Below, in pieces: positions 327-63,763 of a stretch of 64,000 nucleotides of DNA; position 1 is the stretch's first letter; every line of letters begins with the position of its first letter. Made by a program: the position numbers and the translations under genes. The stretch spans positions 45,533,941 to 45,597,940 of the forward strand of contig OW203763.1 of the NCBI GenBank assembly GCA_934045905.1. Direction: 5' to 3'. The notes below the pieces were generated by a model. It did no database searches. It worked only from the letters and a program-made list of their open reading frames with translations, and was not told where the DNA came from. This DNA is from Leuctra nigra (taxonomy: Eukaryota; Arthropoda; Insecta; Plecoptera; Leuctridae).

Positions 327-342
327 TACTTGCTTCCAGTTT

Positions 343-22166: not shown

Positions 22167-22171
22167 GCTTG

Positions 22172-23638: not shown

Positions 23639-23985
23639 AGGGTGTGTTCAACCAGGCCTAGGGGTCCTACCGCCACGTGACTCGTGACGGACCTATTAAC
23701 AAAAATGACCCAACAGCCACACAGCGCTAGACATGACAACGGACCTGCATGGCTGCTGGGCCGTTAGTGAAGACTGGCTTTAAGAACGATAGCAAGGAAA
23801 GTGCTAATTTTACGTCCGGAACGCTCATGAACGCAACCGATCCTTTCCCTGCACGGTCCAGCCTGATATTGTCATACAAGCCTTCCCGCACAGGTATTGC
23901 GACCGGCGCAATTCAATCACGAGCCCGGTACAACTTAATCCAATAATTTACCAGAGTGTCCGGATCGCAGGGTCGTCAACGTTAC

Positions 23986-25988: not shown

Positions 25989-26141
25989 TCAGAGTTCATC
26001 CAAAATATCGTTGATGTCGCCATTTGAGGTGAGAGTTGGTCGTGGGATGTCCCCGAAGACGACTTTCTTGTAGCTCTTGTTGAGGGCTTGACGGAGCTGA
26101 TCTGCGTGTTCCATGTCCCTTGTCTCACACACCACCTTCAC
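25989..26141 (-). CDS. Host gene exon 9 (C-terminus and stop)
   Basis: 153 nt: [13 protein letters not shown]... to ILDEL and TGA. It finishes the ACT domain and adds a short acidic tail. Acceptor CTTCCTCAG. Confidence 0.93.
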   Translation of the reverse strand: MKVVCETRDMEHADQLRQALNKSYKKVVFGDIPRPTLTSNGDINDILDEL

Positions 26142-29100
26142 CTGAGGAAGAATCAAGCTCGATCACACGCTAAGAATAGTCGACCTTGAAACACAAAGTC
26201 AAGCCATTTATTAAATTGCCATCCGCAGCAATGTATTAAATCAATGATTAGCATTATTAATATCATTACATTTTAATGGAGTTTACTAGCTATATGCTAG
26301 AAAGCTTCAGATCTTGAAGATCTTCACGTACACTCGGCAAAACATAACACGGTATGTAAATACATTTGAATTAGGGTGATACAAGCGCTCGGCCGTTTAG
26401 AAAAATGGGGGAAATTGTTTCATAAGTGGATATATCTTTGATAGGATGTTTACTTAATCAGTTAACATCCAACTCTTAATCAACTCTTGTTCATTTTTTC
26501 TTCCACAAGCAGATTATTATTATTTGTTAGGCGCCGGTTATCAACAAAACCGCTCAAAACTATGAAATTTCCGATACTATTGGAGACCATATACGTGAAC
26601 CAATTGATGTCAAATTTTAATCATGATTTGATAAAAAAAAAATAGCTTATGGTTATCACCTTGGTACATTTTTAACATTAAATTTCATAAGGCACCCATT
26701 GAGACAAGAAAATATAAAAAATGTCACCAAAAATCAACTAAACGTTACTAATTGAATGCTGTGCCGGAAGAACCATGTAACCAACAATTTCATTATTCTT
26801 AGTAATAGGCCTAAAACTATTTCAATGCCATATTATCGCAATTACTTATAGTTTGGAAAATAAATATGGATTTTATTTTGTCGGTTTCATTCAATAAATG
26901 GGTACCTGAACATAAAATGTATTACAAAAACGTATTTATTTGGAAAGGGTAATATTTCAGTACCCTTTCTGTTTGTATACTTTTCCTACGAGTTCATCAA
27001 ATATTTTCGTGGATTATCCATCCACCAGTTTTATTTTCTTGCTACTATTTAAACAAATTATCAGGTTTGGTAACACAATGCAGTCCGCAACGTCGGCTAT
27101 CTAGAATCACATTCATGGTTCTTCCATGGCAGCCAACATTCATGTTGAATTTGTATAATGCCAAGATTTAAAAAATCAACATTTTAAGGTGGCAGTAGAC
27201 ATGTACAGACATGTACATGACCTAGACATGTAGTACATGCTAATTCCACCAAAAAATCGAAAAAAGTGTTGGTTACATGGTTCTTCCGGCCCAGTATTCA
27301 ATTAACGAAGCCAAAAATAAAAAATGTTCAAAATGATGGCACTAAGTTTGTCTTTTATTTAATCAAGATTAAAATTTCACATAATTTCGTCAACCTATTT
27401 TGTATCCAATCGTATCCAAAAAAGTGCCTGTAACACGCGGCAAAATCGCTCGCGCTTAGTGATGTTATGTGTATCTAAATAATACAAAAAATACAATACT
27501 AGTATTAGGTATTGCTCAAGTAGCACACTTTGTAAGTAGTGAATGGACTGAACGCACTCATTTCCTATCACAATTGTCAAAGCGATCACTTTGATGTTTT
27601 TAATTTAAATGAAACGCGTTCTTTATAAATGGGTTCTAGCATCCAGGGTTACGTCATAGGAATGGGAATTTGCTGTAATTCATACCAAAGATGAATAAAA
27701 CCATGTGTATCGTATTTCATGCTGCCCCTTACCGTATGATATAATTACATATTTTTGTTCAAAATTTATTTTTTACCTCATACATAACACATGGGCACGT
27801 GATATTGGACTTCAATTTCTGATAAAACCGCAAGAGGAATTACAAATTATTGAAATTGTCTCAATTTAAAGAGAACACTTTTTAGAAAAACACTGTCGTT
27901 CCAAAATAAAGGGTCACCGGCCAAATAAGAAATACAACTTTATAATGTGAGAAATTTTCCATGAATCAGGCAACGTTGCACTGCAAATATGAATTATTTT
28001 GGCGTAAATGAGTGGAATTTCCTTGACGAAGGAAATCGAAGGAATTACGAAGGGGCTTTTCTAATTTGAATTGTTTCACGAGTAATTTGTATGAATTGCA
28101 GCGAATTCAAAGCACCTGGCTGGAGCCCTGGTTCTGACGTGAATACAAATTCAAGGAGTACAAATAGATTACCTCTACACTGAAGATGTCCGATGTGATC
28201 CAAGCTCGTTCGTGCATGATATCCTTGATCGAGACACCAAGATTTGAGACAAGTCGACACAGTTCCGCGATGCCTCCTGGTCGGTCACTCACGGTGACTG
28301 TGAATCTGAGAAGACGGCCATCCACAGCCAACCCGCGGTCCAGGCAGCGTCCCAAGATGGTGGTGTCAATGTTTCCGCCACACAGCAGCAGGACGACTCT
28401 ACAAGAACAAGGAGAGAAAGACTGAGATGATATCGAATCACGCACACAGACTCGGTTACATTCATTCCAATGTATGCTGAATGAAATATAATAGGCTCAG
28501 TCCAGGAGAAATGAGGACCTTAGGATCAAATCGCAACTCTTGCAAAATAAATCGATTTTGAGATAAAGGTTGCGTTACATACTTAGAAGCAAGCTCCATG
28601 TTTTTTTTAAACATTTTATATTAAAAAACTTGTTTCTTATTCAAATCTTATGCACTCCGGATCAAAAACAATCAAAATGGTACTTTTCTTTTTACTTGAG
28701 CCTAAAAATAACCGGCTCGAAAAACATTCTTGTTTTTCGAGCTTCATTCTTGTTCTTCAGCTAATGATAATCATCTTTTTATGATAGGTAGACAATATTA
28801 TGAACATTATCATTTAAAAAAGTGGTTCAGATTGTTTTATTGTGCACTTATTTTAAATATTGTGTGTAATAAGACTAACCCATTTGATTAACTGTATCAA
28901 AACGCAGCTATTGCGTTTTTGAGAATGTAGGTTTCTGTGGAAAACTTCCATGGAGTCAGGATGATATGAAGGGATGTGCGTTGTGAAAATATCCGACCGA
29001 ACCGGGGTTCGAACCCGGAACCTCTCACCTCTCACTTGCCGGGCGAGAGCTCTACCCTCCGGACGGACGGACATTAGACACAACGCACTGATGAGGGTTA

Positions 29101-32100
29101 GAGATCTCCGAGAAGAATGGAATGAAGGTAGAGAATGCTTACTACGAGCTACGAATTTTCATACCACCGGTGACGATGCTGTCACCATGTCTCACTGCAC
29201 TTGCGTGCGCTAGCCCTGTCGGAAAAACCTACTGAATCCTACTGAACACCTACATAGGTTGATGTAGGAATCAATATGTCTTTGAAGGTCTGGATATGCC
29301 TCAATAGGATCACTGGTTACCTATTGGTTCATATGTTTCTATAGGTATATTCATTAGTAGGTGTGAATAGGAATTTGCAGGTCTATGTAGGTATATGATT
29401 CAGTAGGACTCAATAGGGATATGTTTGAATAGGAAGTAGCAGGTCTATGTAGGCATATGATTCAGTATGATTCAATAGGGATATGTTTGAATAGGAAGTA
29501 GCAGGTCTATGTAGGCATATGATTCAGTATGATTCAATAGGGATATGTTTGAATAGGAAGTAGCAGGTCTATGTAGGCATATGATTCAGTATGATTCAAT
29601 AGGGATATGTTTGAATAGAAAGTAGCAGGTCTATGTAGGCATATGATTCAGTAGGATTCAATAGGGATATGTTTGAATAGGAAGTAGCAGGTCTATGTAG
29701 GCATATGATTCAGTATGATTCAATAGAAATATGTTTGAATAGGAAGTAGCAGGTCTTTGTAGGAATATAATTGAATAGGATTCAATAGGTATAAGTTTGA
29801 ATAGGTATTACCAGGTCCATATAGGAATATGATTGAGTAGGATTCAATAGGGATTATGTTTGAATAGGAATTAGCAGGTATATATATATGTATATGATTG
29901 AGTAGGTTTCAATAAAGATATGTTCGAATAGGAATAACCTGATCCTACGTAGGCATATGATTAAATAGGATTCAATAGGAAAATGATTGTATAAGATTTA
30001 GTAGGTTTAAATAGGTAGAACATTTTTCAATAGGCAAAGTTTTACTTCTTTAAAACTCATCTGCCTCTGTAGCTACATTGGGAGAACGGCCGACTTCCAC
30101 GTGACGGACCTGGGTTCAAATCTCCGAGAATGCACTTCAATTTAATTTCGCACATTGATTACAAATGCCACTTGATCTATAAATATGTGCTCTAAAAGTG
30201 AAAAAGACCAATAATTAAGGTGTAGTAATTAATCAAAATTTTAATATTTTTCATCCCTCTAGAATCCTATTTATTCCTATACCTACAGATTCCTATTCAA
30301 TCCTATTGAAACCTATACCTATCAACTCACCGTTTCCCTATTGGAGTCTACTTATTCCTACAGAGTCCCTGTTGGTCACACCTACCAGATCCTACAGAGC
30401 CCTAACATTACACATACCTACTGGCTCCTATAAAAACCTATATACCTACTGAAACCTATCAAAGCGGACACATACACTATATGAAACCTATGAAGTAAAC
30501 CTATTCAAACCTACTTAAACATATACCTATGAACATTCATAGGAATGAATAGGTTTTTCCGGTAGGGAGGTCCTCTTTTTATTTTTTTTTTCTAATTTTT
30601 TTATTGCATTTTTGACGAAAGTGAAGAGCAGAAAGACAAAGATATAATCATTTATGGCCCTAGTTTAGTTCTTTTAACCTGTTTTTTGTAATTGGAAAAA
30701 ATGTATTCTGATTATTACTATTACAAAAATTAAGAAATAAGTAGGGAAGAGTTTAGTAAGCGCGGACAGCAGGTATCGCCGTACAGGTTGAATTGTAAGT
30801 AGTTGGCACAATGTGGGCACAACATAATCAAGGCAATTTTGTTATGAACAGTAGGGGGGACAAAATAGGGTACGAGAAGTACACGGTTACACAAATTGTA
30901 TTAAGGCATTTAGTAACCGAGACAAAAAAATACCCACCGCTTCCCTTTCATCTCCGGTAAATGTCCAGCAAGAATAGCAGCTAATCCCGCAGCTCCGGCG
31001 CCTTCCACCACACATTTCTCCAGTTCCACCAGCCGCAGGATGGCGATAGCAATCCACTCCTCTTTCACCACAACCTACACACAGATATCCAGTTAGTGCC
31101 TTCGAGATGAACCCACATTGGAAACAGCACAAGGTACCCAATATGCATTTCTGGTCTGAAGGGTGTGACAGAAAACATGATCACTCGAGACCAACAATAC
31201 GGAACAAGGATATGGAACAATATGGATCTCTCTGACCCGCTCCGAAACTCCTGGGACGGAGAGGCCTTGGATACCCTCACGGTAATCCTGCCCATGGAGG
31301 TAACCGCACGGACCAGGAGGTGCGAGATGCAGCGACTGCCGCGACGCGTCTGGCCCACAGGAGGGCAGAGAAGCATTACAACGCCCGAAGACGACCTCAC
31401 ACCTTCAACGTCGGCCAACTCATTGTCATCGCGACGCACACCCAGAGCAACGCAGCGAGGCATCAAACTAACAAGTTCAACGCCAAGTGGGACGGCCCAT
31501 GGCGGGCAGTGCGGGTCATCAGCGAGGTGAATCTCGAGTGCAAACGTGTTCGTGATGGTGAAATCAAAAAGGTTCACGTGTCGCAAAGTCTACTACGGTG
31601 GCAAGTGCGGTACCTGCGTGTTTGTAATATCATTCGATCAGCTTGTTCCTATGGATCTGTTTTGTTGTTGTCTAATATTTACATTTTCCATTAGTCTACT
31701 TTGCGATATGTAATGCTTCTAGCGACCTACTTCATTACTGACTCTTAGTGTTTTGTTATGATATTCATATCTCTTTTGTCTATTTGGTGATATGTTTTGA
31801 TCCATTTAATTGACCCCTTTAATTACTGTCTGCTTGCTTATTATTGATTATTATTATTATGTAGCATTTTGCTTGGTATCGTGTTAATTTTTTTTCTCTA
31901 GTGGGAGGGCAGATGTTACGATTGTAGACACCCTCTTTACCGACCACTACCCCCATCTACCCACCCTCATATATTCAGTTTAGAATAGCAAAATGCAATG
32001 TGTGACTTCCTAAAATTCCATCCATATTTTCAGTTTGGGGTAATAAAAGTTATTACATTATATTTGATGATAAATTAGTTGATGTGCTTCATACTAGTAT

Positions 32101-35100
32101 CATACTACTATCATACTACTTTCATACTACTATCATACTAGGAGTATTGCATTGAAACATTCCAGTTGAAAGTAATGTAATATTATGTTCTTTTACATCT
32201 CTGGCATAATCATGATGAGTTATTGTTATATTAATTCCTTATTATTAAAATGTATTAATTTTCTAACGTTAATAATATGTTAACGTTTATAATACACTTT
32301 TTTCTCATATTATTTTGTGTGTTCTGTCTCAATTTTCTACCATACTTTCAAAATAACTGCCTTGACCTTTCTATTTATTTTATTTATTTAAAGCATCTTG
32401 CAATAACATTTTTATATTTTATGTGGCAAGGAAAACAATTACAAACCATAAATAACTTAAAAATCACAATAACGCTATAATAATTCTAAGAGAACAAAAT
32501 TTCAAAGGAACATAATTAAATATAAACTATAAAACATCAGCATCCATTCCTTATCAATTCCTTAAACCGATCTTCACATTGCAATCTTCCAATACCAGCT
32601 CCAACAACACATTCTTATCCAAACCTTTCCAATATCGGACCGTTCTATAAAGAAAGGAATACCAACCTATATCTGTTTTTGAAAAATATTCCTTTAAAAT
32701 GCCAGTATGGTCCTTCGTCCATCTCTCTCAATATCCACAAACCAATCTCGCAATTCGTTTCATCCACCAATGCCGTGTCGAATTATGAACATATTACCTA
32801 ACCTTGTCAACTCCCCCATATCTTCCAAACTTTCCCATTCCAAAGACTCCAACAAAACTGTAGGTCTATAATTCTTTCCTTTACAACAATTCCATGATCG
32901 TTTCTGAATGTAATAAACCTTTTAATTTTATTTGTTACCTTTCTTGCAGCAATTCTCTGAATTTTATCAATCTTGTAAATGTCATTAATTTTATAAGGGT
33001 CCCATATGCCATACACCAAATTCAAGAATTTTGTGACGAAATATTGAGATACACCAAATACACCAAAACAATAGTTAACCGTATATCATCAAGTATGTTT
33101 ATGTGAAGACTTCCTGACTTTATTGATCTATTGAGTTCTCTGCACTCAATTAAAATACAACAAAATATTTTAAACATGCAGCCTGAGAGATGATATTCAA
33201 GAAAATAGAATGCGCTGATATTTTTACTGAAAACATAAGAAACTTTTGGAAAATCCAAAAGTCAAATGATCAGAAATTTTAAAAATAACTTTCTAACTGT
33301 TCTAGACATGATAACAATTACAAAAACGATGAAGACATTATTTAGTTTCAATTTAAAAGAAAATGAATCAAAATCGGATCAACGGGAGCTGAGATATTGT
33401 AACTGCAGTGGCCAAATTGATCATTGGCCGCCATCTTGAATCTGCAGGGTCGAAACAAATAACTCCTCTTCCAAAAATTTTCAGGAGGGTACAGTTTAGA
33501 TATTTGCAAGAACTGATAATTTAATCCATCAATCCATCATAATCCATTGCTTAGCTACTGCACTATAATATGCGTGTTTTAAAAATTGTTCACTTTTCTG
33601 ATTTACAAATTCACAAATTATTATCATTAGAACTATTTTGATTTAGGTAGACTTTTGAAACGTTACACAAGAATGTATTCTTAATCTAATTACACCAAAG
33701 GTACGTCTGTAGCTCTTCGGATGCGACTACAGCACCCATTTTAATTCGCGTGCACAGTTTTAAGCCTCTCTGTAGAGATGCCACTCTGGGCACTTTAGAG
33801 CATATTTGACCTTGGTACTAATTTTGAAATGTGTTATATATTTTTCTGAACTCTACTTGAAAAAAGCTTTCATTCGATACTATATTCGATGTATTTTCAT
33901 TACTCTGTAATTTAATAATCGCATTCAATTGTTTTTCACTAATTGACCAATCAAAGGCAGCTACCCTATTTTGATTTTGGAAGACTTTTGTTATGTTATA
34001 CAGTTATTTTTTCTGAATCCAACGATATAAAAAACTAGAATGTTTCAAATAGTGGTGGGTCAAACCGTTTCGACTCTGAATTAAGGGGGAGCAATCGATC
34101 GACATATACAAAAAAAAATTATTCTTGAAATTACAAGTTCAAAAAACGTTTTCCTACATTTCAACTATATTTAAGTACAACAGACTCATTTAATGTTCTG
34201 TAGTTTGCAACTCCAGTCCAACAATGAGTTTTCAATTTTATGTTATCAGAGGATGAACAAAACTTTAACATGGGAGGTATAGGAAAATCATTTCGAATTT
34301 GGTATATAACTTTTAAAATAGCACACGTTGGTATTGTTTTCAATTTTTTTCCTGATAGTATGTCCATATGTCTACCATAAAAAAAGTTTTTTGCTCAAAT
34401 CTATCGAGACAAAAAAAAATAGATCTTCATTTTAGCCTAAAAATGACACGATTTTCTTTTTCCGCCATAAGATAACATGGTGGAGACAAATCAATTTATC
34501 TCAGAAACTGGACACGAGATGTGTTTCATTTTTTCATAGATTGTGTATTGCATGATTATCAATAAGTCACCAAAATTTCAAGTAAATCGGAAACATTGAG
34601 GTTATGGTGGTTCTACCTTAAATGTGAACCGTAATAAAACGTAAGTGACTGGAGTATTAGTCCGTGGTTTGTCCGATCCCATGCTTGCGAGTATTTACCA
34701 TCTTGTCGATGAGGGGCTTTGCCGTGGCAAACGCGTTGTATCCCACCATCGGCACCGCCAACCCGTCGGCCAGAGTCGACTCAATCGGCGTATACACAGG
34801 CTTCCCAGCCTTGATAGCCCGGGAGAAGCTGGAGCATCGTTCAGACTCCACTCCCTGGAACAACGCCATCATGGAAAGCGTTAGGCAAAATTGTATTTCA
34901 TTTTCCAACAAGGGAGTTTTTCAATACTCTGCTAAAAGCAATATTTAAGTTTAAAAGGTCATTCAAGGAATGTAATAGGTTATTGCCATAGCAAAATAGT
35001 CCTAATCATCTGTTTAAAATTTTGCAGAGTATTGAAAATCTTGCCCTAAGGTAAGTATGCATCAGTATCTGAGGGTCAAAGGTCGGTAAGGAGTCGCAGA

Positions 35101-38100
35101 GGTTATAAACATTATCATTCGTAAAAAAATGTTCCGATTGTTTCCCTGTTCACTTATTTTGAATAATGTATGTTAAAGATACCAAATAAGTAAATAACAA
35201 AAAGCACTATTTAATCACTATTGCATATGAATGCCCTTATTTGCTTTGATACCCTTCATATTTCAACTTTTTGAACCAGGTAGGTAAAAGTATTACATAA
35301 TATAGTATTTAGAAAATTAGAGCATACATCTTTTTTTACGAAGTACTTTTTACTCAGAACCAGAATTTTCGCGATTATCTCAAAGTATACAAAGGTACAA
35401 AAGTTGCCTTTTTGATCCGAAGTTCCTACTTTGTTCTCTTATTTAATTTGTTTGAAACGAACAGCTGATCTGAGATTTGCATATGCGCAATTACACTTTG
35501 TGCAAAAGTGTTGTTAATGAAAATCCACTCGGGACCTGCTTTATAGAAAGGTAGGTATGGTATCAATCTAACACAAAAGTATAATATGTATGAGTGCGGT
35601 GTGAAATATAATATAATTATAATATCGACTTTTTTGGTTATATTTCAGAACATTGAGTTGAAATGGTAATTTCACAAACAAAAACGAGCCATTAAACGTT
35701 TTAACATTTTCAATAGTTAGCTATATGTATTGATAGATTAATCCACACGGTTTTATCTCAGAATTTTATTCAAATATAATAATATACATATGTGTAGTAT
35801 TGTATTGAAGGTATATTTAACCAGACTTGGAAAGCGCTCAGTAAAACGCGTTGATGAGTGAGTGAGTTGTTGCGAGTGCAACACTTCGAATTACCTACGT
35901 GTAACCATAAAATCAGTGAAAAAAATACGATCAGATCAAATTGGCAATTTGGTCTTCTCGATGCATTATTTCTTCAAGCAGTTTCAAAACGCTTTAAATG
36001 ATCGGAAAGTTCTTAATCGACTTGGCGGAAAAATTGAAAAATATTAGATAATGCCAGTCTTCATGACAAAATTTTAACGTGATTTGACTATTTTGATTTT
36101 AGTCCAAGTAATTTAGGTCAGTGACAATGTGTACAAGATTTACAAAGAAACTAAATTACTGGTAAAATTTACTAGTCTGCATAAAAGGCATAATTTTGTA
36201 ATATTTCTGAGTAGAAATATGATATTTTTATCAAGAAACTGCTAATATATTAAATTATTACCTCGATGACCGATAAAGCTATTATACAATATTATCTAAA
36301 ACGATGTTAGATAACGATGTTGTTATTCCGGTAAAATTTTATGATTCTAAATGTATAAATACATATTTACAGACATAAATGAGCAAGTTGCAAATGTAAT
36401 AGGTATTACAATATGTAATATGTATGTAATATGTATTTGTAATTATGATGTTAGAACGGAATCGGCAGTAGGTATAAATCCCAGAAAAAACAATCCGTGT
36501 AAAAAGGGCAGCCAAGTCTCTTTACTTTAAAAAAATTCAACACTAAAAAGGAGTGATATCAAAAAAGGAGCCAAGTCAATGACATTTCCAAGTATTTAAT
36601 CGTATCTTTGAAATAAAAGTATAAACACCGAGAAATACTTGACAAAATGACTTGGCGCATCGTTTTTTTAAAGACATTTTCTATCCTAAAAAATGGAAAG
36701 AAATTTACAAGTACATTTTATTCTTCCTATCAAAGGCAGTAAGTACCTATGAATCATGCTACTTTTGGTAATGGCTATTTTGTAATTTTGTAAATGGTGA
36801 TAGAAGATAGATTTGTAATATATAAGTAATATAAGAGTGAATGAATTAAATAACAAAAAAGTCGGCTCATATACTACTATAGCACATTTAATGTGTTGAT
36901 AGCAGTAGGGTGGGGGACACGGAAGGAGCCTCCACGAATGATTCAAATATACCGGTGCACTAACGATGAAGAGGCAAGGAAATTTTAAAGGAAATTTTAA
37001 CGGCTTTTTCAAAGCCAGTTTAAGTAACGACTTCAACCAACATTGAAGGATTTTCAGCATTTAAGGAGATTTTATTAGCGGACCTGTGCAAGGAAAACTA
37101 CTGGCATTCTGTTAGTCCAAGAGACTCACAGAGCAACTACTAGCCACAGACCAAAGATCAGGGGAATGAAACTAGTCTTGGAAAGACCACATGAGTTGTA
37201 TGGCAGTGCAATCTTTACGAGATCTGACCTCGATATCCTGTCTTCTGCTTTGACTTGAGTAGAATATATTGAAATTTTTACATTAGAGATTAAATTTGGT
37301 ACATTAACATCAATTAACAAACCCCCTAATGCTGATTTAGCTTTACACCGAACAATTTCCACAACCAGAAATTCAAAATTGTTTCGGGAGATTTTAATTG
37401 ACATAACGTCGCTTGGGGATATGCAGAGACTGATGAGAATGGCGAAGACCTGAAACATTGGGCTGAACAAGAGTTAGCAAGGTTTCAAGTTAATACACGA
37501 CCCAAAGTTACCGTTTTCGTTTAACAGTGGTAGATGGCGACGCGGGTATAATCCAGACAACATCTTCGTGAGTGACGAGATAAAATAATTTGAATTGCTA
37601 GAAAATATTTTGTTGTCTCTGAACAGTTGTATTGAGTTGGGCTCGATTAGGGTATGGAAAGACGCGTCCGGGCGGGATGTGAAATGATTGTGCACTTTGG
37701 TATAAAAGCACCAAATTTTTACCACAACCAGATACTCAACCATTCATTAAAATACCGGGAGCCACCTCAGATTTTGCCCATGAAGCCCGTGGCGGCCATT
37801 TTAAGAAATTGCGCCTATTTTTATGTATTGCGCTAAATTCAACGGGAATATGACATGCGACACCATCTTTCCTACTAAATCGATCATGGGGAACTCGAAT
37901 ATAACATCAGAATTCTCCATTTTCTCACCGCTTACCCGTGGCGGGGATTTTTAACAGTGACGACCATATTTGATATTACCGTCAAATGAAGTGGGCAACA
38001 TGACATGCGACACCATCTTTCACACTAAATCGACCATAGAGAACTCGAAAATCCCATAAAAATACTCGATTTGTTTACTGGTCACCCATGGAGGCCATTT

Positions 38101-41100
38101 TAAGAAATGGCACCCACTTAAAAATGTCACATGAATCTAAAATTGTCATGCGACACAATCTTTCCAACTAATTTGACCATGGAGAATTCGAATATGAAAT
38201 CAAAATACTCAATTTGCTTACTGGTAACCCGTGGCAGCCATTTTAAAAAATGGCACCTCATAAAGAAACACATAAATCTAAATTTGTCATACGACAACAC
38301 GTTGTCGCATGACGCATGACGCTTGTCGCATTGTCGCATGACAAAGTTATATTTATATGTTTCTTTATGAGGTGCCATTGATTAAAATAACTGCCACGGG
38401 TTACCAGTAAGCAAATTGAGTATTTTGATTTCATATTCGAATTCTCCATGGTCAAATTAGTTGGAAAGATTGTGTCGCATGACAATTTTAGATTCATGTG
38501 ACAGTTTTAAGTGGGCGCCATTTCTTAAATGGCCTCCACGGGTGACCAGTAAACAAATAGAGTATTTGCATGTCATTTTCGAGTTCTCCATGGTCGATGT
38601 AGTGGAGACGATGGTGTCGCATGTCATATTCCCGTTGAATTTAGCACAATACATCAAAATAGGCGCATTTTTTTAAAATGGCCGCCACGGGCGTCATGGG
38701 CAAAATCTGAGGTGGCTCCCGGTATTTTAATGAATGGTTGGGTATCTGGTATCTGTGGTAAAAAATTGGTGCTTTTATACCAAAGTGCACAATCGGGCCG
38801 TTTACTTGCACATCCCGCCCGGACTATAATCTATAAAGTATTGTTATGACTCACGATGATCTTGATGTGAGGGAACAGCGTCTTGACAGCGAGAGCAACT
38901 CCAGCAATCAATCCTCCTCCTCCAACAGGGACGATAATAGCATCGATATCGTGAACCTGTTCCACGATCTCCAGCCCCAGTGTGCCCTGGCCAGCCATGA
39001 TGTGAGGGTGGTCATATCTGCAACCAGGACATATAGTCAACTTCCACGATCTCCAGCCCCAGTGTGCCCTGGCCAGCCATGATGTGAGGGTGGTCATATC
39101 TGCAACCAGGACATATAGTCAACTTCCACGATCTCCAGCCCCAGTGTGCCGTGGCCAGCCATGATGTGAGGGTGGTCATATCTGCAACCAGGACATATAG
39201 TCAACTTCCACGATCTCCAGCCCCAGTGTGCCCTGGCCAGCCATGATGTGAGGGTGGTCATATCTGCAACCAGGACATATAGTCAACTTCCACGATCTCC
39301 AGCCCCAGTGTGCCCTGGCCAGCCATGATGTGAGGGTGGTCATATCTGCAACCAGGACATATAGTCAACTTCCACGATCTCCAGCCCCAGTGTGCCCTGG
39401 CCAGCCATGATGTGAGGGTGGTCATATCTGCAACCAGGACATATAGTCAACTTCCACGATCTCCAGCCCCAGTGTGCCCTGGCCAGCCATGATGTGAGGG
39501 TGGTCATATCTGCAACCAGGACATATAGTCAACTTCCACGATCTCCAGCCCCAGTGTGCCGTGGCCAGCCATGATGTGAGGGTGGTCATATCTGCAACCA
39601 GGACATATAGTCAACTTCCACGATCTCCAGCCCCAGTGTGCCCTGGCCAGCCATGATGTGAGGGTGGTCATATCTGCAACCAGGACATATAGTCAACTTC
39701 CACGATCTCCAGCCCCAGTGTGCCCTGGCCAGCCATGATGTGAGGGTGGTCATATCTGCAACCAGGACATATAGTCAACTTCCACGATCTCCAGCCCCAG
39801 TGTGCCCTGGCCAGCCATGATGTGAGGGTGGTCATATCTGCAACCAGGACATATAGTCAACTTCCACGATCTCCAGCCCCAGTGTGCCCTGGCCAGCCAT
39901 GATGTGAGGGTGGTCATATCTGCAACCAGGACATAATATAGTCAACTTCCACGATTTCCAGCCCCAGTGTGCCCTGGCCAGCCATGATGTGAGGGTGGTC
40001 ATATCTGCAACCAGGACATATAGTCAACTTCCACGATCTCCAGCCCCAGTGTGCCGTGGCCAGCCATGATGTGAGGGTGGTCATATCTGGTCATAATAAT
40101 GAATTTGTAATTATTGAGAAAGTGGTTGTTCAGTCGTCATTACTTTGTAATTATCACAGCTTTATTTGGAAGAGAACATTTTCAGTTAAAACGGCTGAGT
40201 ATGAGAGTGACCTTGAAGAGTTTGTGATTGATTTTTTTGATATCTTTTCCTTATGTTATTGTTTTGAAATAATGCTTCGTACCGGTCTTCAGAACTGTTT
40301 ATTGAAAGATATTTAATAGTTTTTTAATGTCTTTAGTATTTTATTATGTCCTACAATCGTTTAGTACCTGAAAATTTATAAAACACTCCAAGGCTTACTA
40401 CTTAGCCAATTTATTCGATTTGTAACAAAACTGTCACAAACAAAAACCTTATCGGTACTTATTCTGTGCCTTCTTTGTTATTATTTCCTTGGGTCCAATT
40501 GAATAAATTAATTAATGCAAGGGCGTATTCAGGTTTAAATTTTGGGAGGTGCTGGACATTATTAATATATTTTGATTAATCACAATGGAATACATGGGGG
40601 TTCGGGGGCACAGCCGCCGAAAAAATTTTCGGGCAAGGTAATTAGTGTTAGTTCAATTTTGAATCGCATGGAGCTACACTGAGCTGTTTTGGGGGCGAAA
40701 CCCCGGAAATGTTTGCATTTTGAACTCATTTACAATCATTTTGATACGTTTTCGACATGATCTGTAATTTTTTATGAGTTTTCTTGCGTTCTGTACGTTT
40801 TTTTTAAGACAAATCCATGACTTCGGGGGGGGGGGGGGGGGTCCTCTTTTGCCTCCCCCCCCCCCCTGGTGTCGCCCTTAAATTAATGGATGAAAAATGA
40901 AAGTGGAATGCAGCCAGTCAAGTTAAGTCACCGTTGGTGCGACGATTGTCCAACATGGCGTAACATTTCGACGAATTCAACACTACACTGTATTCAATTT
41001 ATTTTACGTAAGTATGAGATTTTTTTCTCTAATATCGTAAACATGTTTACCGCTTTGCGTCTCCGTCAACATCACTTACCCATTGATGTAGGTGAGATTG

Positions 41101-44100
41101 CGTTCTTTGCCCATGGACATGGCGATCTGCTTGGCCTCTCCCATGTCCTTGCCTTGCACGATCACGGTGGCGCCGTGCTGACGACAAGCAGCGATCTTCA
41201 TGATGGGGGCGACGATCGGCATGACGACGGTCACTCCGATCTTCAACTTGTGTCCGTGATAGGAGAGCGCCAGAGCGTGGTTGCCGAGGGAGGCCGATAT
41301 CACGCCGATTGCCTTCTGCTCGTCCGGCAACATGAGAAGTGCGTAGCGCGCTCCACGTTCCTTGAAACTGTACACAACATATTACTTGGTAGTCACTAGT
41401 CAACACATAACATAGTAGACTTGGTAGTCATGTACATTACTTGGTAGACTTGGTAGTCATGTACATTACTTGGTAGTCATGTACATTACTTGGTAGACTT
41501 GGTAGTCATGTACATTACTTGGTAGTCATGTACATTACTTGGTAGACTTGGTAGTCATGTACATTACTTGGTAGTCATGTACATTACTTGGTAGACTTGG
41601 TAGTCATGTACATTACTTGGTAGTAATGTACATTACTTGGTAGACTTGGTAGTCATGTACATTACTTGGTAGTCATGTACATTACTTGGTAGACTTGGTA
41701 GTCATGTACATTACTTGGTAGTCATGTACATTACTTGGTAGACTTGGTAGTCATGTGCATTACTTGGTAGACTTGGTAGTCATGTACATTACTTGGTAGA
41801 CTTGGTAGTCATGTCCATTACTTGGTAGACTTGGTAGTCATGTACATTACTTGGTAGACTTGGTAGTCATGTACATTACTTGGTAGACTTGGTAGTCATG
41901 TACATTACTTGGTAGTCATGTACATTACTTGGTAGACTTGGTAGTCATGTACATTACTTGGTAGTCATGTACATTACTTGGTAGACTTGGTAGTCATGTA
42001 CATTACTTGGAAGTCATGTACATTACTTGGTGACTTGGTAGTCATGTGCATTACTTGGTAGACTTGGTAGTCATGTACGAGGGCTGTACCGAAAGCAAAG
42101 GCTACATGTCGGTACCGGGTTTCCTCTCCTTCATTTGCTCTAATACACATCACTAGTGGAGCCTGACCACAGATATAGGTCCTATCTATCTTACTTATCT
42201 ACAGGCTACTCGAGCGACTGACCCCCCATTCACCATGCAAAATTAAGTTTAGCATTGCAAAATTATTTATGAATTGCTTAAATTATATTTTAAAAAAACG
42301 CCCTGCGTGCGTGGCAACAATTGGGTTTGATTCAGTTCGTGCATTTTATAGCCCCAGAATAAATTTTAAATTGTTATATCTAAAAATAAATACGCCCTAT
42401 GGGGCTGAAACTGGGGAGCTTTGCCACCCATACTCTCCTTTCGGGTGTCGCAATACCCCCCCCCCCCCCCCCCCCTTAGTTCCTACGCCCCTGCCTATCT
42501 AGATATGGTTTATGTATGGCCTTTCTATTGAAAGGTTTAATCAATCATACATAATTACAGTTTTTTCTGTGGTTTAACGTCGCACTGTTCTAATTCCGAC
42601 AATATTGTAATTGCCTTCGATGTAATGACTGCAATTCACATATTTTTCTGTCATTTAAAAAAATTACAATGTCCCTCAAATTTCTTAAAATTACTTAGTC
42701 TTAAAATTTCGACATTATTAATATTTTATATACCTATTTAAGAAGTAATTTCCGGGTTTGGTTCTTCTCGTTCAGGGTCCCTCACGGTAATGCATACTTG
42801 ACCACTCTTGATGTACCGAGACATCAACATATTATTGGATTTTAAAATTGGAATTAAATGAGACTGAACTCATTCAAAAGTCATACGAAAATCTCATTTA
42901 ATTTATCTAGTGGAGCGGTCGCTCCACCCAGCCAAGTCGTACCGTACACTCACACGCACTCAACATACCGTAAATGCCTAATAAACTGAGGAGCAGACCA
43001 ACCACTTTTACTGTAAGCAACAACATGGCATTTTCGGCCTACTGGATCATAAAATTGGAAAATCTCACATTGTTGTGAAATATCTTAATTTCGAGCTATG
43101 GCCCACCCCACTCCATATACTAAATTTGGGAACAATATGTTATGCCATTTGCGTGCTAGAGGGCCGTGAAAACAGTGAAATTACACCCCTTTTAAAACCT
43201 ATCTGATGATGATAATGATAATGATATCAGGAAACACCGCTATCACCGCCACAGCCTAAACGGCTTAGCCGATCGATCTGAAATTTTTACCACATGTGCA
43301 CTTTTGGCGTCTGAGGTGCCTTTTTATAAATCAAACCGGTAGTCGCCATTTTGAAACCGGAAGTGACGTCATATCTCGAAAACGGCTAGACCGATCGGAA
43401 TGAAATTAGTGCCAAATGATTCAGACGGTCATCTATGTGGAATATCAATAATTGAAATAGAATTGTACTATTACCGAAACCGGAAATGACGTAATAAAAA
43501 TGAAAAACATACTAATCACCTCTTCATGCAATAAAAAAACATATTCAGAAGGCTTATAATGATACATAACATTTATAGAAACAAATTCTAGGTGTCAGTA
43601 ATTTCAGCCGCCATTTTGAAAACCGGAATGTTGTCATATCTCGAAAACGGATGTACCTATTGGGGCAATACTTGCCCAATTCTACATGGAATATCATTTT
43701 AAGCATTATTTAGCATCAAACGCAAATTTTATTAGTAACAAAATCGGAAATAGCGTATATTTTAGAAAATAGTCATTGATTAAAAAATAAAGAAATAAAT
43801 ACTTTGCGCATCTTGTATAAATAATATAGACGTGTAGGCCAGAAATCAATGTATACCTAATACCACCTCAATCAACCTACCTATATCTATAATATCTAGT
43901 GGAGCGGTCGCTCCACGCCAGCCAAGTCGTACGGCGCGCACACTCTCACACAACATACCGTTCAAACCTAAAGGCTGGAGCAACCCACTTTTACTGTAAG
44001 CATCAAAGTGGCATTTTCGGCCTACTGGATCTCAAAATTGGAAAATCTCACATTGTTGCGAAATATCTTAATTTCGAGCTATGGCCCACCCCACCACATA

Positions 44101-47100
44101 TACCAAATTTGGGAACAATACGTTATGCCTTTTGCAACCTGGAGGACCCTGAAAACCGTGAAATTGTACGGCTTTCTTCAGATGATATTATAATAATAAT
44201 AATAATAATAATAATGATTAATCTTCCAATAAATTCCGCGGTCTCCGCCACAGCCTAAACGGCTGGGCCGATTGACCTAAAACTTTCACCACGTATACAG
44301 CTCGTCTGCCTGAGGATACCTTGCCCTTATAATTTTTTTGTGCCGCCATTTTGAAACCGGAAGTGACGTCATATCTCAAAAACGGCTAAACCGATCGGAA
44401 CGAAATTTGCACCAATCGATTCAGACGGTCGTCTATACGAAATAACAATAGTGAAACTAAAGTTTTCTAATTTCTGAAACCGGAAATGACGTAATCGTTT
44501 TGCGAAATCTGCTTGAATTCACTTCCCCTTTATATAAAAACCTATACATACCTATTCAGAAGGCTTATAATGAAATAATAGTATCTATATACATAATAAT
44601 ACAAAATATGTATTATTTCAGCCGCCATTTTAAAAACCGGAAGTGATGCCATATCTCGAAAACGGCTGGACCTATTGGAACGATGCTTTCGCAATTCTTC
44701 ATGGCATATCACTTTAAGTTTATATTTAGCTCCAAACAATATTTTTCTTAGTAACTAATTCGGAAATGGCGTATTTTTTTAAAGGAATTAGTCATTGTTG
44801 CCCCAATAAGTTTTACAAGTTGTGTAAATAAACTAAAAAAATAAGTGATATCCCCATAAAAAAACACTCCGTGTAAAAAAAACAGTCAAGTCTCTTCAAC
44901 TAAAAAAAAATTATGAAATCTAAAAATTCTGCACTGAAACGTTGTGATATCAAAAAATGAGCCAAGTCAAAACTTTATTTGAAAATTAAAAAATACTTGG
45001 CGCATCGTTTTTTTAGGGCATTGTAGGTATACTGTAAGTATATGTATTTATATCTAGCCTATACTTCTAAGCTATTTATATACACGATGCGCCAAGTATT
45101 TTTTAATTTTCAAATAAAGTTTTGACTTGGCTCATTTTTTGATATCACAACGTTTCAGTGCAGAATTTTTAGATTTCATAATTTTTTTTTAGTTGAAGAG
45201 ACTTGGCTGTTTTTTTTACACTGAGTGTTTTTTATGGGGATACGAATTACAAGGAAAAATGTCGGAAAAGATCAGTGAAACCCTGTACCCTGGTCCCTGA
45301 GTCAGTTCATAGAATAATAAATTACAATAGAATAATATGTTGTGGAAATTACTCCTACCTGCCAGTGTATTGGAGAAAGTCTTTCTTCAGGAATATCTCC
45401 ATCTCCGTTAGCTCGGATAGGTGTGATTTCTGAGAAGAACAATTAAGGTTAATTAAATTACATTAATTTATTAACAATAATAGAATAACTGAAATATTGC
45501 AATATTGAAATACGGTCCCTGCAATATTTAATAAAATACCAACAGACTTAAAAAAATATCAAATTATTAATAATTTAATACAAAATTGGTTGTTACGTTC
45601 TCTGGAGTAGTTACTGTTGTTTTTTTTCTTCTGTGATAAAATTACCATCGCTAATTTGATAAGATATTGTTTTGATGATTTTTCCTCTGTTTATTATTAA
45701 TCATTCTGTGATTTGATTATGATAAATTAATATCATTGTTATGATTTTGTTTCTTATTATGATGAATATTAATGTGTTAATATGTTGTTATAACATTTAT
45801 GTGTAACATTTATTTTATTATATAATTTACTAATTTATGTTTAAGTGATTTTTACTACAGGAAAGTAGGTACTACCTCCTAGGTGATGTTTGGTTAAGCC
45901 AAGGATTTATGTTGTATTTGTATGAGAGGTTTTCTCAATAAATATATTAAAAAACTATTGTTAAGCATTTTTTGTTAATTACGAAAGTCTTAAGAGAGAA
46001 CAATCAATGTTATATTGATGTAGTACCTACGCCCAACAATAGAATAAACGTTATTCGAAAGTAACGGATTGGCTGCTGGTCAGGTTCGTTAGTCAATCCT
46101 TGTCGATGACGAGATAATCGGCTTCTTTCGAATGCCGGATTTTCTTTTGTTTAGTGCACTTGTATCATTAAAACACAGAGTTGTAATTAGGTATTAATAA
46201 TAAAAGATGATATAGTAGAGAGTTACTAAAATATTTCGAAATAAATGCGTGTAGAAGTACCAAGGGCTTATTCAGGGGCAGGGGCTTGGGGCCGCCCCCC
46301 CCCTCCAAAATTAGGGCTTCGTCTCAAAAGCATACGCACAAAACTAAAAAAAATCATAAAAATGAGAGATCATGTCGAAAACAAACCAAAATGCTTGGAA
46401 TTGAGTAAAAATTGAAAATTTCCGGGCCTGAGCCCCGAAAATAGCCCATACCTTCACTGCGACTCAAAATTGAACCAAACTTCCGGCCCCTCCCAAAATT
46501 TCATCCTGAATACGCCCTTGAGAAGTACATTCAATATCAATGACGAATTACATCGACAGCGGAGGGTATAAATGCCAGACACACGCCAACAAACCCAAGG
46601 GCTTTACCTGGATGAAATTCCGTGAGGGGGGGAGGAGAGGGGGATATACTGCTCAAACTGGGGAATTAGTCACCCGAAAAAATCATAAAGGTCATTAAAG
46701 TTCTGGAGTAATTATGAGCGCGAGCGATTTTGCTGCTTTTGTAGACCATCACATCTTTGAATACGATTGGAGACGAAATTGGTTGACGAAATGATTTGAA
46801 ATTTGTATCATGATTAGATCATTAAATTTTTTTCTGAGTTAATTATAGTTATAATTTGCTAACTTTTTGTGAAAAATTATCTGTTTTCTTGACTCGCTGG
46901 ATGCCGTATAAAATTTAATATAAAAAATGTGCCAAGTAACAATCTTAAAGTTCATCCTTGAACAACACACTTGTAAAATTTGAAATCAATTTATTCACGG
47001 GTTTGGTATCCAATCGTGTCGGAAATTTCGTTGTTTCGAGTGGTTTTGTTGAAACCGGCTCCTATTTAACAAAGGCAAGATAGTGGAGTAAAGATGTCTA

Positions 47101-50100
47101 AAATTAGTGCGTTTGCGATAGTATTCGTGAAAATTGGTACCCTTACTAAATCGAGTATGAGGAATCCAAAAATCGATGGCACCAACCTGAGTAATGAATA
47201 CTTTCTGCGTAATTAGCATAATTAGCATAATTAATAAACTTAGATAAAATAATATATAATTTTATAATATGGTATTTATGGGTGTCCATCGAAAGCTCGT
47301 CATGTCTTCAATCCATATAAATCATAAAAATCTAAATTTTTTCATTCACATAATAATTAATCGTATAATTAATTATTTTATAAAAATCGCCATTCAACAA
47401 AAAGCTTAAAATGACCCTCTCAGATTTGTTTTGATCTCATCATATTGCCTTGTGTGAATATGGCGATTTTAATCAGGTGAATTAATTAGTGGATTAATTA
47501 TTATGTTAATGACTATAATTAACTTTTGGCGACTAATATGCATTGTGGACATTACAAGCTTTCTTTAGATACCCATGAAGACCACGTTATATAATTATGT
47601 AATTTTTATGTCGATTTTATTAATTATGCTAATTATGCTAATTACGCAGAAAGTATTAATTATTTAGGTTGGTGCCATCGATTTTTGGATTCCTCATACT
47701 CGAATTAGTAAGGGTACCAATTTTCACGTTTTCCAATTTTCACCAATTTTCACAAACGCACTAATTACTCAATAAATTGCAAAAAATACTTTTTTGTGAA
47801 AAGGCAATTTGGAAGGCAAAATTTTGACTTTTCCCCCCTTAAATGTATATACTACTTAGTCCCTAGCAATAAGTTTCACACAATTTGAAAAAGACGAAGC
47901 TTCTGAGTTAAACGGTGTAAAAGTTAAAACAGTTCAAGTGAAGGAATAGAAATCAAAATTTTGATTATTTGAGGGCCTGGAAATCCAAAAGCACTCAATA
48001 AATGAACAAACCAAAAAATACGTATGTTTTACTTTGGGCTTGTGACCAATCCTACCAAGTTTTATCTAAATCTGAGAGGGTCATTTTAAGCTTTTTGTTG
48101 AATGGCGATTTTTATAAAATAATTAATTATTCGATTAATTATTATGTGAATGAAAAAATTTAACTTTTTATGATTTATATGGATTGTAGACATGACGAGC
48201 TTACGATGGATACCTATAAAGACCATATTATAAAATTATATATTATTTTATCTAAGTTTATTAATTATGCTAATTATGCTAATTACGCAGAAAGTAATAA
48301 TTACTCAGGTTAGTGCCATCGATTTTTGGATTCCTCATACTCGAATTAGTAAGGGTACCAATTTTCACGAATACTATCGCAAACGCACTAATTTGCCATT
48401 ATATAGGACATCTTGACTCCACTAAGAAGCAAAAATAAAAAAGTGCTATTAATATACAATCAGACTGGTGAACATCCTATCAAAGCATCATGTCCACTTA
48501 CGAAACAATTGTATTCTCTTAATTTGCCCCAGCGGCCGAGCGCTTGTATCACCTTAATGTTTAGGTATTTTCCAATGATTTGGGAAATGTAAATTAAAAA
48601 CCTATCAGTAAGTCCGCAAGTAGATACTTTTTGTTTAAAAATTTACTGTAATTATTGAACACATAAATTCTGTTATCAGTGATTATATTTCAAATCTTGA
48701 TATAAATCTCACTTAGTGGATATGTAAAAAGGACGTCACGCAAAAATTGGTTATTTTGGAGTTTTGGAGACCCCCTCTCCATCTGTCACGCTGTGCCATA
48801 CTTTTCGACCCCCCCCCCCCCCCCCCCCCCCCCACCCTCCCTAGAAGGACGACTCAAAACTATCGAATTTGTCTGACTGTGAAATGTATCAATTTTAGCG
48901 AAATTTCAAGTCCCGACATAATAATAACTGAAATTTAACATTAATTAAATTGTCTATATCAAAATGTGACGTGTCCCACTGTCTCCAGCCCCCCCCCCCC
49001 CCCCCCCCTCCCTACCCCTTCCTCCTGAAGCGTGGCGTCCTTTACGCACATCCCCATTCAAATAATAACAAAATAACACACCTGCAACTAATTTTATTCC
49101 ATTAAATAATATTACTTACTTTAGTTCACATTATTATTTTGTTAGATGATGGTCTGATTTCTACCCCCTCTCTTCCCCCCCCCCCCCTAGATACAGAAAT
49201 GGGGGTTGATTTTGATCCATTATTGGCGTCGGAAGATGGGATCCAAAATAGGGAGTCCAAGCTGAAAATATTATATCTGAATCTGATGCAAAGTCCCGGG
49301 AACATGCAGTATAACATGAACTGTTAATGGCTTACCATGCATGGTGTTACTAAAATGCCGGATTTGACGCGAAATGCAGCCGAAGTAATGTCTTCAAACT
49401 GGAGCAATTGCGGGTCCGATGATTTGCAGAACGGATCCAAGAATTCCTCGGCCGCACTCTGTCAAATACAAATAATTTACACAACAGATCCAAGAATTCC
49501 TCGGCCGCACTCTGTCAAATACAAATAATTTACACAACAGATCCAAGAATTCCTCGGCCGCACTCTTGCAGGCACAAATAGGTAATTTGGAATCCAAGGA
49601 TTTAAGACATCTCGGCAGCATTCTGTCAAAACACAGATGATTTACAGAATAATCCAAGAAATCTCGGCCGCACTCTGTCAAAGACAAATAATATACAGAA
49701 CAGCAGCGCGATTGTGTAAGCTTCACTTCCGAGTCCATCGTCCATCTCCTAGATGCTGAGTGTGTAACTCACTTTAGAGATGTAGTCCGTCTAACTCTGG
49801 CTAGAGGTGTAGCTCTCCATCTCTAAAGTGAGTTACACACTCAGTGTCTAGGAGATGGACGATGGACGAGATTAGACGATGCTCGTCTAATTTGGAAGTG
49901 AAGCTTACACAATCGCGTTGCAGATCCAAGAAATCTCGGCTGCATTCTGTCAAAGACAAATAATTTACTGAACGGATCCAAGAAATCTCGGCTGCATTCT
50001 GTCAAAACACAGAGGATTTACAGAATAATCCAAGAAATCTCGGCCGAACTCTGTCAACGACAAATAATTTACAGAACAGATCCAAGAAATCTCGACTGCA

Positions 50101-53100
50101 TTCTGTCAAAACACAGATGATTTACAGAAATCATCTTATTTGATCTCTCACAGATGATGACAGCCGCACTCTGATGAATAACAATTAATTCTGCCAATCA
50201 AACATGTTCAAAGCACTTAGTTACTCTTAGCAGGAACTGGAACCGGAACCAAAATCGGAATTGGAATCCAGATTTTTTTTAGGTAGAACCGGAAGCGGAA
50301 AAATGTGAATGTAAAGGCTGTATAGGTAGGTAAGGTTGGTTGGTAAGGTTGTATTTAACATTATTTGGGTTCCATAACGGTTCCGTAACGGTTCTATAAA
50401 TAATTATTTTAATTCAATTTTTACTTATTGCCCTCGAGGCCGTATCCATAACTTAGGCATTATAGGCAGAGTGACTAGGGCCTACGAAGGTTTTGGGGCC
50501 TACCAAAGGCCCACTTTCATAAAAATAAAAATAAACTTCAATTAAAAATTATTTTTCAATTCAATTTATATCAATTATTCAATGATTTTAAAGTTGTTTC
50601 AAAATTGTGTAAAAATCGCGTAGACTAGAAATGCACCAGATAGAGTCCAGAAATTCAAAATTTTCCCGGGGCTGTGCGCCCTGGACTCACATATAACTGG
50701 TGGATTGGTGAGGATCTCTCGCCCCAGTCCCACAATTGTTTTCTTCAGCAAAAACTTTCCCCTGAAGATCGATGATCGTCTCGCCGCTTATTATTTTAGA
50801 AATTAACTACTGGATAAAGTAAAACATTTCGGACAGGGGCCTACGAAAAAGTAGTGCCTATAGGGCCTACGAAGGTATTAAAACGGCCCTGATTGCCCTC
50901 CTATAATCTCAAAATATAAAATTACAATTATTATTATTGGCAATTGTTACAATAGTTTTTCAAATAAACAATCATGGGGTCGATTATTGTACGACATTTC
51001 TTACCTTAATTATGCAATCTACTGTGCCTGTATAAGTTTCAAAACATCGATTTTTAAAGAAGAAAGTCTGAATTGAAGGAGCTGATTGCAACCCAAATAG
51101 AACCCAAACGGAACTGGAACCGATATTTCAAACAAGAATTGAACCATGGAGCGGACCCGAAATTCAATTGGGTTAACAATAACAATACACACAATAACAA
51201 CAATTCAACAATAACAATAAGTGCTACCTACACATACTTAAATTGATTTGTACCTAATACTTACAAATTTACTTCAAACATAAAAGTAACCCGGAATTGA
51301 AGTTTTAAAAGCCTCCATTGAGTCATCTATCTAATTTTTTTAAATTATGTCGTAGCCGGGAGCCACTTTTAATACATTGAAATGAACTTCCTCTTTCTAC
51401 TTCCTTGACATTTTAATGTCTTTTGCTCTATTGTTTTTACATCAATTCCTAGATCACATTGCAAAACTCTTTTTCCCTCTCCGTTTTGTTTCAGATATCT
51501 AGATTAAGATTTTATAGGTAATAGGTACAATCGAATATGCAAAATGCTATTCAAAATAGTGAAAATTATATTTTTATTTTGTTCTTCAATTAGAAAAGGA
51601 TGAACACGAATTGATGAAAGAAATGAATTATTTGTGTTAATACATACTTCAATTGCATTTAAACTCACTTCGTCCATATTTCTGAGACTCTGCATGCTGG
51701 TTGCTGGTTCAACGATATTTAAATACTCGAACTGATATTATTGCACTTAAACCTTCCTTTTCGTATTTACTACTTTGATCTTTGAACTGTGGCTATCGAC
51801 GAGTGAAGCAGCTGAATGAAGATATTCTTGATCGCGTTACTCACGGCTGATGACAACTACCAGACATTGAAACCAAACCGGTATTCACAGATAATTATTG
51901 AACTAAGAGTCGGCTGCACCCGGACGTAAATTCTTGCGACAAAATTTCACAACTCCCGTCATAGCTTTAGATCTATTCAAATTATTAAAAATGTGAAAAA
52001 CAGTTTGCGTAGCTATTTCGTGAGTCTATATTAGAGATGAGAGCACACACTCACTGATATGATTTATGTGCCTAAACTCGAAGTAAAGGTGAAACATTCC
52101 CATTTTTTAAACTTTTTGGTAGCTTTTGGGCACAAATATTGCACTTACAAATTGGTGGTCTTATGTCTTCGGTCGACTATAACGAAATAGCAACAGACTT
52201 CTTTCTTATATAGGTTAATAATTTATACTGCATGACTGCATCAATGCAATTTAATCAAAAGTGGTTTACCTCTAGTGCAGCCGACCCTAAAGGGTTGTCG
52301 GGAAGGGGGGCGGGGGGGGGGGGGGGGATTTGTAGACAAGAGAGAAGGTCAATGATCTAGACCTACGATCAACAAAAAGCAGCATTAAAAATGAAGTAAT
52401 TATTTCCTATTATTGTCTTTACATTTTTGTTGTTATGGCTATTATTTGTTCACCACTCACGAGTGTTGGTAATATGTTGTTCAGACACGTCTAAAAATGA
52501 CATATAAATATGTTTCATGTGTTTCTCATGTCAAAAATATGTGTTTCGTTTTGCCTGAAAATGCCTTTTTCTAAAAAAAATTATGAATTCACAGTCCTTT
52601 TCTTGCTAATTTAAAGTCTTTTTGTCAAATTTTACACATTATTGGGGAAAATAATATGAAATGTTTGTTGCAAGTTACAGCAATTTTATGAATTGTGGTC
52701 TAGAAAAAATAATTCATAAAATTTCCATCAAAACAATGGATACTTGATAAATTGACACATTCATACAATAATTTAAGTTAATTTTAATATATTTCTCCAA
52801 GTCCAACTCCTAAACCGATAAATCGAATAATAATGTTGACGAATATAACATACCATACAATTTCAGTGGTCCTTTTTAGGGATTTTGAGATCATTTTTCA
52901 ATAGTTTTAAAGCACTATTTTCCTGCCTTTTAAGACGTTTCATAAGTCCTAAACCTTCGAGCATACTATTTATGCTCGAAGTCCTAAACATCCTAACCCT
53001 AGTAATATCAAATGAACGTGCATTTTTGGGCTACTTCTCTTTTCTCTCTTGGTTCTTGGTTCTATTTGTGTATATGACCAATTGAACATGGATGCCGGGA

Positions 53101-61905: not shown

Positions 61906-62402
61906 TCCAAGCTTGTTCCCATGCGTTGAAGATGTCGAGACGTAAGGTCCTTCAGGCGGCGCTGCTGGTCGGCCGTTAAGTGGTCTTGATCCTGGATGAT
62001 TGGCGTTGACTCGATCGCGTTGCAGATCTCAGGCGAGGTAGCGAATGTCCAGGTTCCAGCAGAAAGGTCGGGCATCAAATGCATCGCCTTCCAGAAGTCC
62101 GTTCCAAGCACTAAAAGAGCCTTCACTTTAGGTACAACTAATATAGGGATTGTACACACACGCCCATATAACTCTAACGGGGTGTCTATCACTCCTTCTA
62201 TTTTACATGTGTTCCCATCAGCCACTGTCAATACTTGACGTTCACGTCGAAGAATGCATAGACCTAGCTCTTGAAGTATCTTCCATCCTTGGGCGCCTAC
62301 AATCGTTCGACTTGAACCAGAGTCCAAAAGTCCCAACAATGGATATCCAAACACTTTTACTTCGAGATGTGGTCGTGCATCTGCATCTGCTTTCAGTAAC
62401 AT
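61902..62402 (-). CDS. Gypsy aspartic protease region of Pol
   Basis: 166 residues from the first ATG; the frame is open further upstream to overlap the end of gag. Active site LLDSGSSRTIVG and the second conserved region LVLGTDFW. Residues after about 125 lead into the RT N-terminal linker and end at a stop where the RT frame takes over. Confidence 0.85.
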   Translation of the reverse strand: MLLKADADARPHLEVKVFGYPLLGLLDSGSSRTIVGAQGWKILQELGLCILRRERQVLTVADGNTCKIEGVIDTPLELYGRVCTIPILVVPKVKALLVLGTDFWKAMHLMPDLSAGTWTFATSPEICNAIESTPIIQDQDHLTADQQRRLKDLTSRHLQRMGTSLE

Positions 62403-62482
62403 ATGGCTAAGAGAAATAGGACTACAGTCATTTTCTGAGAAAGTTGACGTGGCCGCTGATACTCGGGGAGGCGGAGTCGACC

Positions 62483-63613: not shown

Positions 63614-63763
63614 CCTTGTTCAATGCACGTAGCGGAATGTGAAGGTCACTCGAAGCGTAGCTTGTGAAGGTCGTTGCGCTGCCACGAAATACGGAGTCGA
63701 CTGTCGAATTCCACGGGCGTCGTGATCCACGCGTCAGTCGCCGAATTCCTCGCGACTTCTGGC

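Follow-up and report, generated by a model that had tools for sequence, protein, structure and literature searches.

In a 64,000-nt stretch of the Leuctra nigra genome (Insecta; Plecoptera; contig OW203763.1 of assembly GCA_934045905.1, positions 45,533,941 to 45,597,940; hereafter the window), the minus strand carries a gene predicted to encode an insect L-threonine ammonia-lyase, in which the 3' splice site and the first 58 nt of exon 5 are repeated in tandem, so that 13 decoy acceptors precede the real one. We read this array as a recent minisatellite of the kind called mirage in lancelets, lying in an intact gene, spliced out through use of the last acceptor and with its decoys tolerated, and give this reading a probability of about 0.74. 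A second, more diverged array spans the acceptor of exon 2 of the same gene. The number given to each exon is nominal, since exon 1 was not found within the window.

Structure of the exon 5 array

The array was detected with Tandem Repeats Finder (TRF) and then divided into units at the exon start; all coordinates are those of the window. TRF reports it at 38960-40089 with a period of 82, 13.7 copies, 98% matches and a score of 2205. On the minus strand it resolves into 14 exon heads of 58 nt, 13 decoys and the real one, with first bases at 40086, 40004, 39919 and so on to 39099 and 39017. Between them lie 13 spacers, which measure 24 nt except for one of 27 nt that holds three additional bases after head 40004; 12 of the 13 head-to-head intervals are accordingly 82 nt and one is 85 nt. 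The hexamer TTGCAG precedes 13 of the 14 heads (12 decoys and the real exon), while GACCAG precedes the outermost, at 40086. GTGGAA is followed by CAGGTT in the real copy only.

A preliminary description of this DNA had proposed an acceptor and exon head amplified about 14 times, with units ending in GTGGAA where the real exon goes on with CAGGTT, and both points are borne out. Its thirteen 82-bp units with TTGCAG agree with the 13 decoy heads upstream of the real head, except that one unit measures 85 nt and the outermost lacks this acceptor. The span it gave, 38967..40090, located the array correctly but missed its end, which lies within exon 5 at 38960. The array is thus real and close to what had been described.

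Among the 13 units the mean pairwise identity is 0.988. Decoys 40086, 39591 and 39181 have GGCCACGGC in place of GGCCAGGGC, a change from Gln to His at a position where 11 of 11 aligned sequences have Gln, and for this reason these three decoys look unconstrained as protein. Decoy 40004 differs by a silent GAA for GAG. As to homogenization within the array, both outer units deviate, but two inner units have the Gln-to-His change as well, and at its downstream end the array carries the majority sequence.

Beside the array, at 38004-38296, TRF lists a 143-bp repeat with 2.1 copies, which is followed, up to 38660, by what appear by eye to be inverted copies (38004-38660).

Decoy acceptors and the reading frame

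With each of the 14 exon 5 acceptors in turn, the message was read through exons 3 to 8. Each of the 13 decoys runs into a premature stop, 85 nt past the acceptor in 12 cases and 88 nt in one, in line with the TGA in the next unit that had been predicted for upstream acceptors; the last acceptor alone leaves the frame open. Skipping of exon 5 also leads to a stop. Splicing of a decoy head as a 58-nt pseudo-exon to any later acceptor was considered as a way to rescue the frame and was rejected, as 0 of 91 combinations are open. Use of the last acceptor of exon 5 is the one route among those tried that would yield protein, and since every upstream acceptor gives nonsense, correct expression needs the last one, as the preliminary description had held.

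The real site is set apart by where it lies: no acceptor but the last is found 163 nt from the true donor. The standard decoys share the 24-nt intron tail with it, including the branch-like sequence TTGAC, and they have the same pyrimidine content (0.60; 0.55 for the outermost decoy). The introns flanking exon 5 measure 2,062 and 4,000 nt. For introns above 200-250 nt, splicing is said to pass to exon definition, in which splice sites closest to each other across the exon are favoured, according to the account in PMC9225289. As both introns are well above this range, a choice of the acceptor across exon 5 is plausible.

The array probably arose by duplication of a short piece of intron tail and exon head at the 3' splice site of exon 5. 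The upstream duplicate would have become intronic and free to drift, and the 82-nt unit would then have been multiplied through slippage or unequal exchange. Choice of the last acceptor, next to the true donor, would remove the whole array within the 2,062-nt intron, while any transcript spliced to a decoy would end at a premature stop and probably be degraded by nonsense-mediated decay. The decoys are thus probably tolerated. The pattern probably does the enzyme no harm. A trace of the first step may persist in the spacer, where, if CAG is skipped, 9 of the first 11 nt agree with the exon sequence that follows the head; with seven offsets allowed, 18 of 20,000 shuffles did equally well. This gives a weak hint that the first duplication extended ~70 nt into the exon, drifted, and was multiplied only afterwards.

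Several points speak against removal through the last acceptor and the origin outlined here. Over 140 nt (-82 to +58), 6 of the 13 decoys match the real acceptor at every position and 5 more show one or two differences; only decoys 40086 and 39919 diverge further, an effect of the outer flank or of the three inserted bases. Hence, nothing local marks the real exon 5 site. In classical work cited in PMC9225289 the upstream of two competing 3' sites won, and for human 3' sites the same source gives an overall upstream preference, which is reduced under exon definition. On the basis of this preference some leakage to the exon 5 decoys is likely, and PMC3087553 mentions that mirage units might act as cryptic splice sites. 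For the first duplication, an anchored alignment of spacer to exon was not unusual (1,913 of 20,000), which leaves the hint split.

If decoys were used substantially, the array could act as a dose control, with more copies causing more nonsense-mediated decay and the copy number setting the enzyme output. The intron tail, presumed branch-like motif and pyrimidine content that the standard decoys have in common with the real site would suit this role, as would the premature stop behind every decoy and the presence of two arrays in one gene. In C. elegans genes with multiple splicing decisions, a minisatellite is described in PMC4039745 as enriched in introns close to alternative exons. On the other hand, the units are nearly identical and therefore no constraint on them is readable, and the lancelet mirages are reported or suggested to be silent in PMC3087553 and PMC3902484. 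Nor is there a special RNA fold: one unit (z +1.42) and a 446-nt block (z +3.23) were less stable than shuffles, which gives no support to an RNA structure hiding the decoys either. Overall, we regard dose control as unlikely.

Relation to known mirages and a second array at exon 2

Mirages are defined in PMC3087553 as tandem repeats over intron-exon boundaries and are described there for several lancelet genes, such as the globin genes BflGb6 and BflGb9 and Adh3; regular splicing is reported on the basis of globin RT-PCR and Adh3 data. Mirages in this sense also form a homogenized cluster whose boundary units escape homogenization, and their copy number varies between haplotypes or cells. The authors of a study on lancelet PGBD5, which also has tandem repeats over splice sites, suggest accurate splicing for this gene and state that the Adh and troponin C mirages give no aberrant mRNAs (PMC3902484). 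The preliminary description had called a metabolic exon turned into a minisatellite unusual; this is fair for a functional-looking exon with competing acceptors, but the kind is already known from lancelets.

In the gene analysed here, tandem repeats cover the intron-exon boundary at two exons, 5 and 2, and many units carry splice signals, with 14 acceptors at exon 5 and 10 at exon 2. It is thus a mirage by anatomy at both exons. BflGb6 resembles it in that the 3' end of an intron and the 5' part of the exon are duplicated in a minisatellite-like tandem, many of whose units carry AG signals. According to PMC3087553, BflGb6 has units of 150-160 bp, 6 and 3 in two haplotypes, with 81-100% identity, compared with the 82-nt units, 14 heads and tighter identity of the exon 5 array. 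The repeats of lancelet PGBD5 are described as imperfect, a 108-bp one being a triplication (PMC3902484), in contrast to the long, near-perfect array at exon 5. Further differences from the lancelet cases are the insect host, the unrelated gene and the two arrays in one gene. No arthropod minisatellite over a splice junction was found among the literature matches listed, which is no proof of absence; the host is apparently new.

Tandem repeats at splice sites have also been connected with intron gain. New introns may arise from tandem repeats located at human exon-intron boundaries (PMC2812944), and Drosophila introns gained through simple tandem duplication are described in PMC2891723. In a potato case, a duplication supplied a different position with the branch site, tract and acceptor of an intron already present, which resembles the exon 5 array, as do the Drosophila cases, being insect tandem duplications at splice motifs. 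In these cases a new intron was gained, whereas here none of the pseudo-exon combinations is in frame. The Rogers model, as given in PMC4974935, derives the donor and acceptor of a new intron from a duplicated AGGT, leaving the peptide unchanged. The exon 5 array does not fit this model, as the unit junction GAA/gttgac matches the donor consensus at only 3 of 9 positions and no combination is open.

The exon 2 array, which the preliminary description did not include, makes the case more interesting. A pattern search found the head of exon 2 and the preceding intron tail repeated from 50170 to 49458, with 10 acceptors, of which 9 are decoys; one decoy acceptor ends in CTGCAAG and one in TCATCAG. 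None of the 9 decoys is open in the frame that leads on into exon 3. Mean identity is 0.790 among the seven full units, which measure 52-58 nt and are more diverged than those of exon 5. Because of this divergence and the insertion inside the array of an inverted repeat resembling a miniature inverted-repeat transposable element (MITE), the exon 2 array is taken to be older than the exon 5 array.

That one gene holds two arrays which differ in divergence hints that acceptors of this insect lineage may repeatedly seed minisatellites, in which case many genes could carry decoy fields whose copy number tunes or threatens expression; we consider this generalization rather unlikely. The exon 2 array also bears on whether the exon 5 array is an assembly artefact and is shorter or single-copy in the animal. 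Assemblies have difficulty in fixing how many near-identical 82-nt units are present, but the exon 5 units carry distinct variants (three Gln-to-His changes, one GAA and one 3-nt insertion) and at exon 2 the units have diverged and an insertion lies among them, so that we find an artefact very improbable.

The gene contains other intronic arrays. In the 29/49-bp array upstream of exon 4, weaker similarity (about 78%) continues to within ~14 nt of the acceptor; the AG and the exon are not repeated. A 62-bp minisatellite with 10.1 copies (29364-29993) is located in the intron that separates exons 7 and 8, with the closest splice site ~1 kb away. To compare array positions with chance, six arrays were picked by hand from 35 TRF rows and set against 8 acceptors in 20,000 random trials. 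Three of the 8 acceptors lie at most 50 nt from an array; 8 random points did equally well or better in 11.6% of the trials, and at least 2 of 8 random points fell inside an array in 28.2%. On position alone, a targeting of arrays to acceptors was rejected, as the observed placement is within chance in such an array-rich gene.

The two arrays indicate that boundary-spanning minisatellites are not limited to lancelets, which bears on the origin of new introns and splice variants. They confront the splicing machinery with many near-identical wrong acceptors. Identical competing acceptors in a natural gene offer a clean test of spliceosome choice, in which strength and local context are constant and mainly position varies.

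Host gene and other features of the window

Exons 2 to 9, eight exons in total, form an open frame of 438 residues up to the stop codon, with GT and AG at the exon junctions. Exons 2 and 9 were located by tblastn with seven homologues. Exons 3 to 8 joined give an open frame of 347 residues, on which the protein comparisons were made. This piece matches PALP with 262 bits (cut-off 35; profile positions 16-295 of 295). With ACT it reaches, lacking exon 9, 21.9 bits, which is under the Pfam cut-off of 27 and a partial match (profile positions 5-38 of 66). Matches of known structure are threonine dehydratases and serine racemases, the best being 2gn0 (1.4e-57). The best-listed relatives are insect L-threonine ammonia-lyases, and identity to ten of them, taken from the 120 hits listed and aligned, is 82-88%. 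In a protein tree of 39 of the 120 hits listed and the query, the query is unplaced, with a cockroach and a stick insect nearest by path.

The missing exon 1 and the burden of two arrays could suggest a silent or dying locus, with an intact paralogue expressed instead, but against the long open frame across eight exons and the high identity to the ten insect homologues we give this little credence.

Coordinates of the arrays and exons in the window
Feature	Coordinates	Strand	Description
Exon 2 mirage array	49459..50170	-	9 decoy acceptors with heads; TRF rows 49422-49703, 49921-50129
MITE-like inverted repeat in exon 2 array	49698..49926		arms 49698-49751/49873-49926 (76% complementary), 49733-49785/49815-49867 (94%)
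Exon 2, 123 nt	49336..49458	-	insect protein homology, frame into exon 3; start at last array acceptor assumed
Exon 3	45359..45429	-	part of 347-residue open frame
29/49-bp intronic array near exon 4	41415..42078	-	TRF end 48 nt upstream of exon 4 acceptor
Exon 4	41080..41367	-	part of 347-residue open frame
Exon 5 mirage array	38960..40089	-	14 heads of 58 nt, 13 spacers of 24 nt (one 27)
13 decoy heads and intervening spacers	39018..40086	-	premature stop from each of 13
Last spacer, with real exon 5 acceptor	39018-39041	-	acceptor TTGCAG
Real exon 5, 163 nt	38855..39017	-	in-frame splicing to adjacent exons; donor gtgagt; repeated head at 39017-38960 (first 58 nt)
Exon 6	34699..34854	-	part of 347-residue open frame
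Exon 7	30938..31074	-	part of 347-residue open frame
Exon 8	28173..28398	-	holds partial ACT match
Exon 9	25989..26141	-	ends at stop codon; tblastn, frame

In the window, Rfam gave no matches at gathering thresholds and ARAGORN no tRNA genes. Long open frames are present at 319-3309, 18543-23647 and 59350-63619; judged by eye from their motifs, their products resemble retrotransposon proteins.
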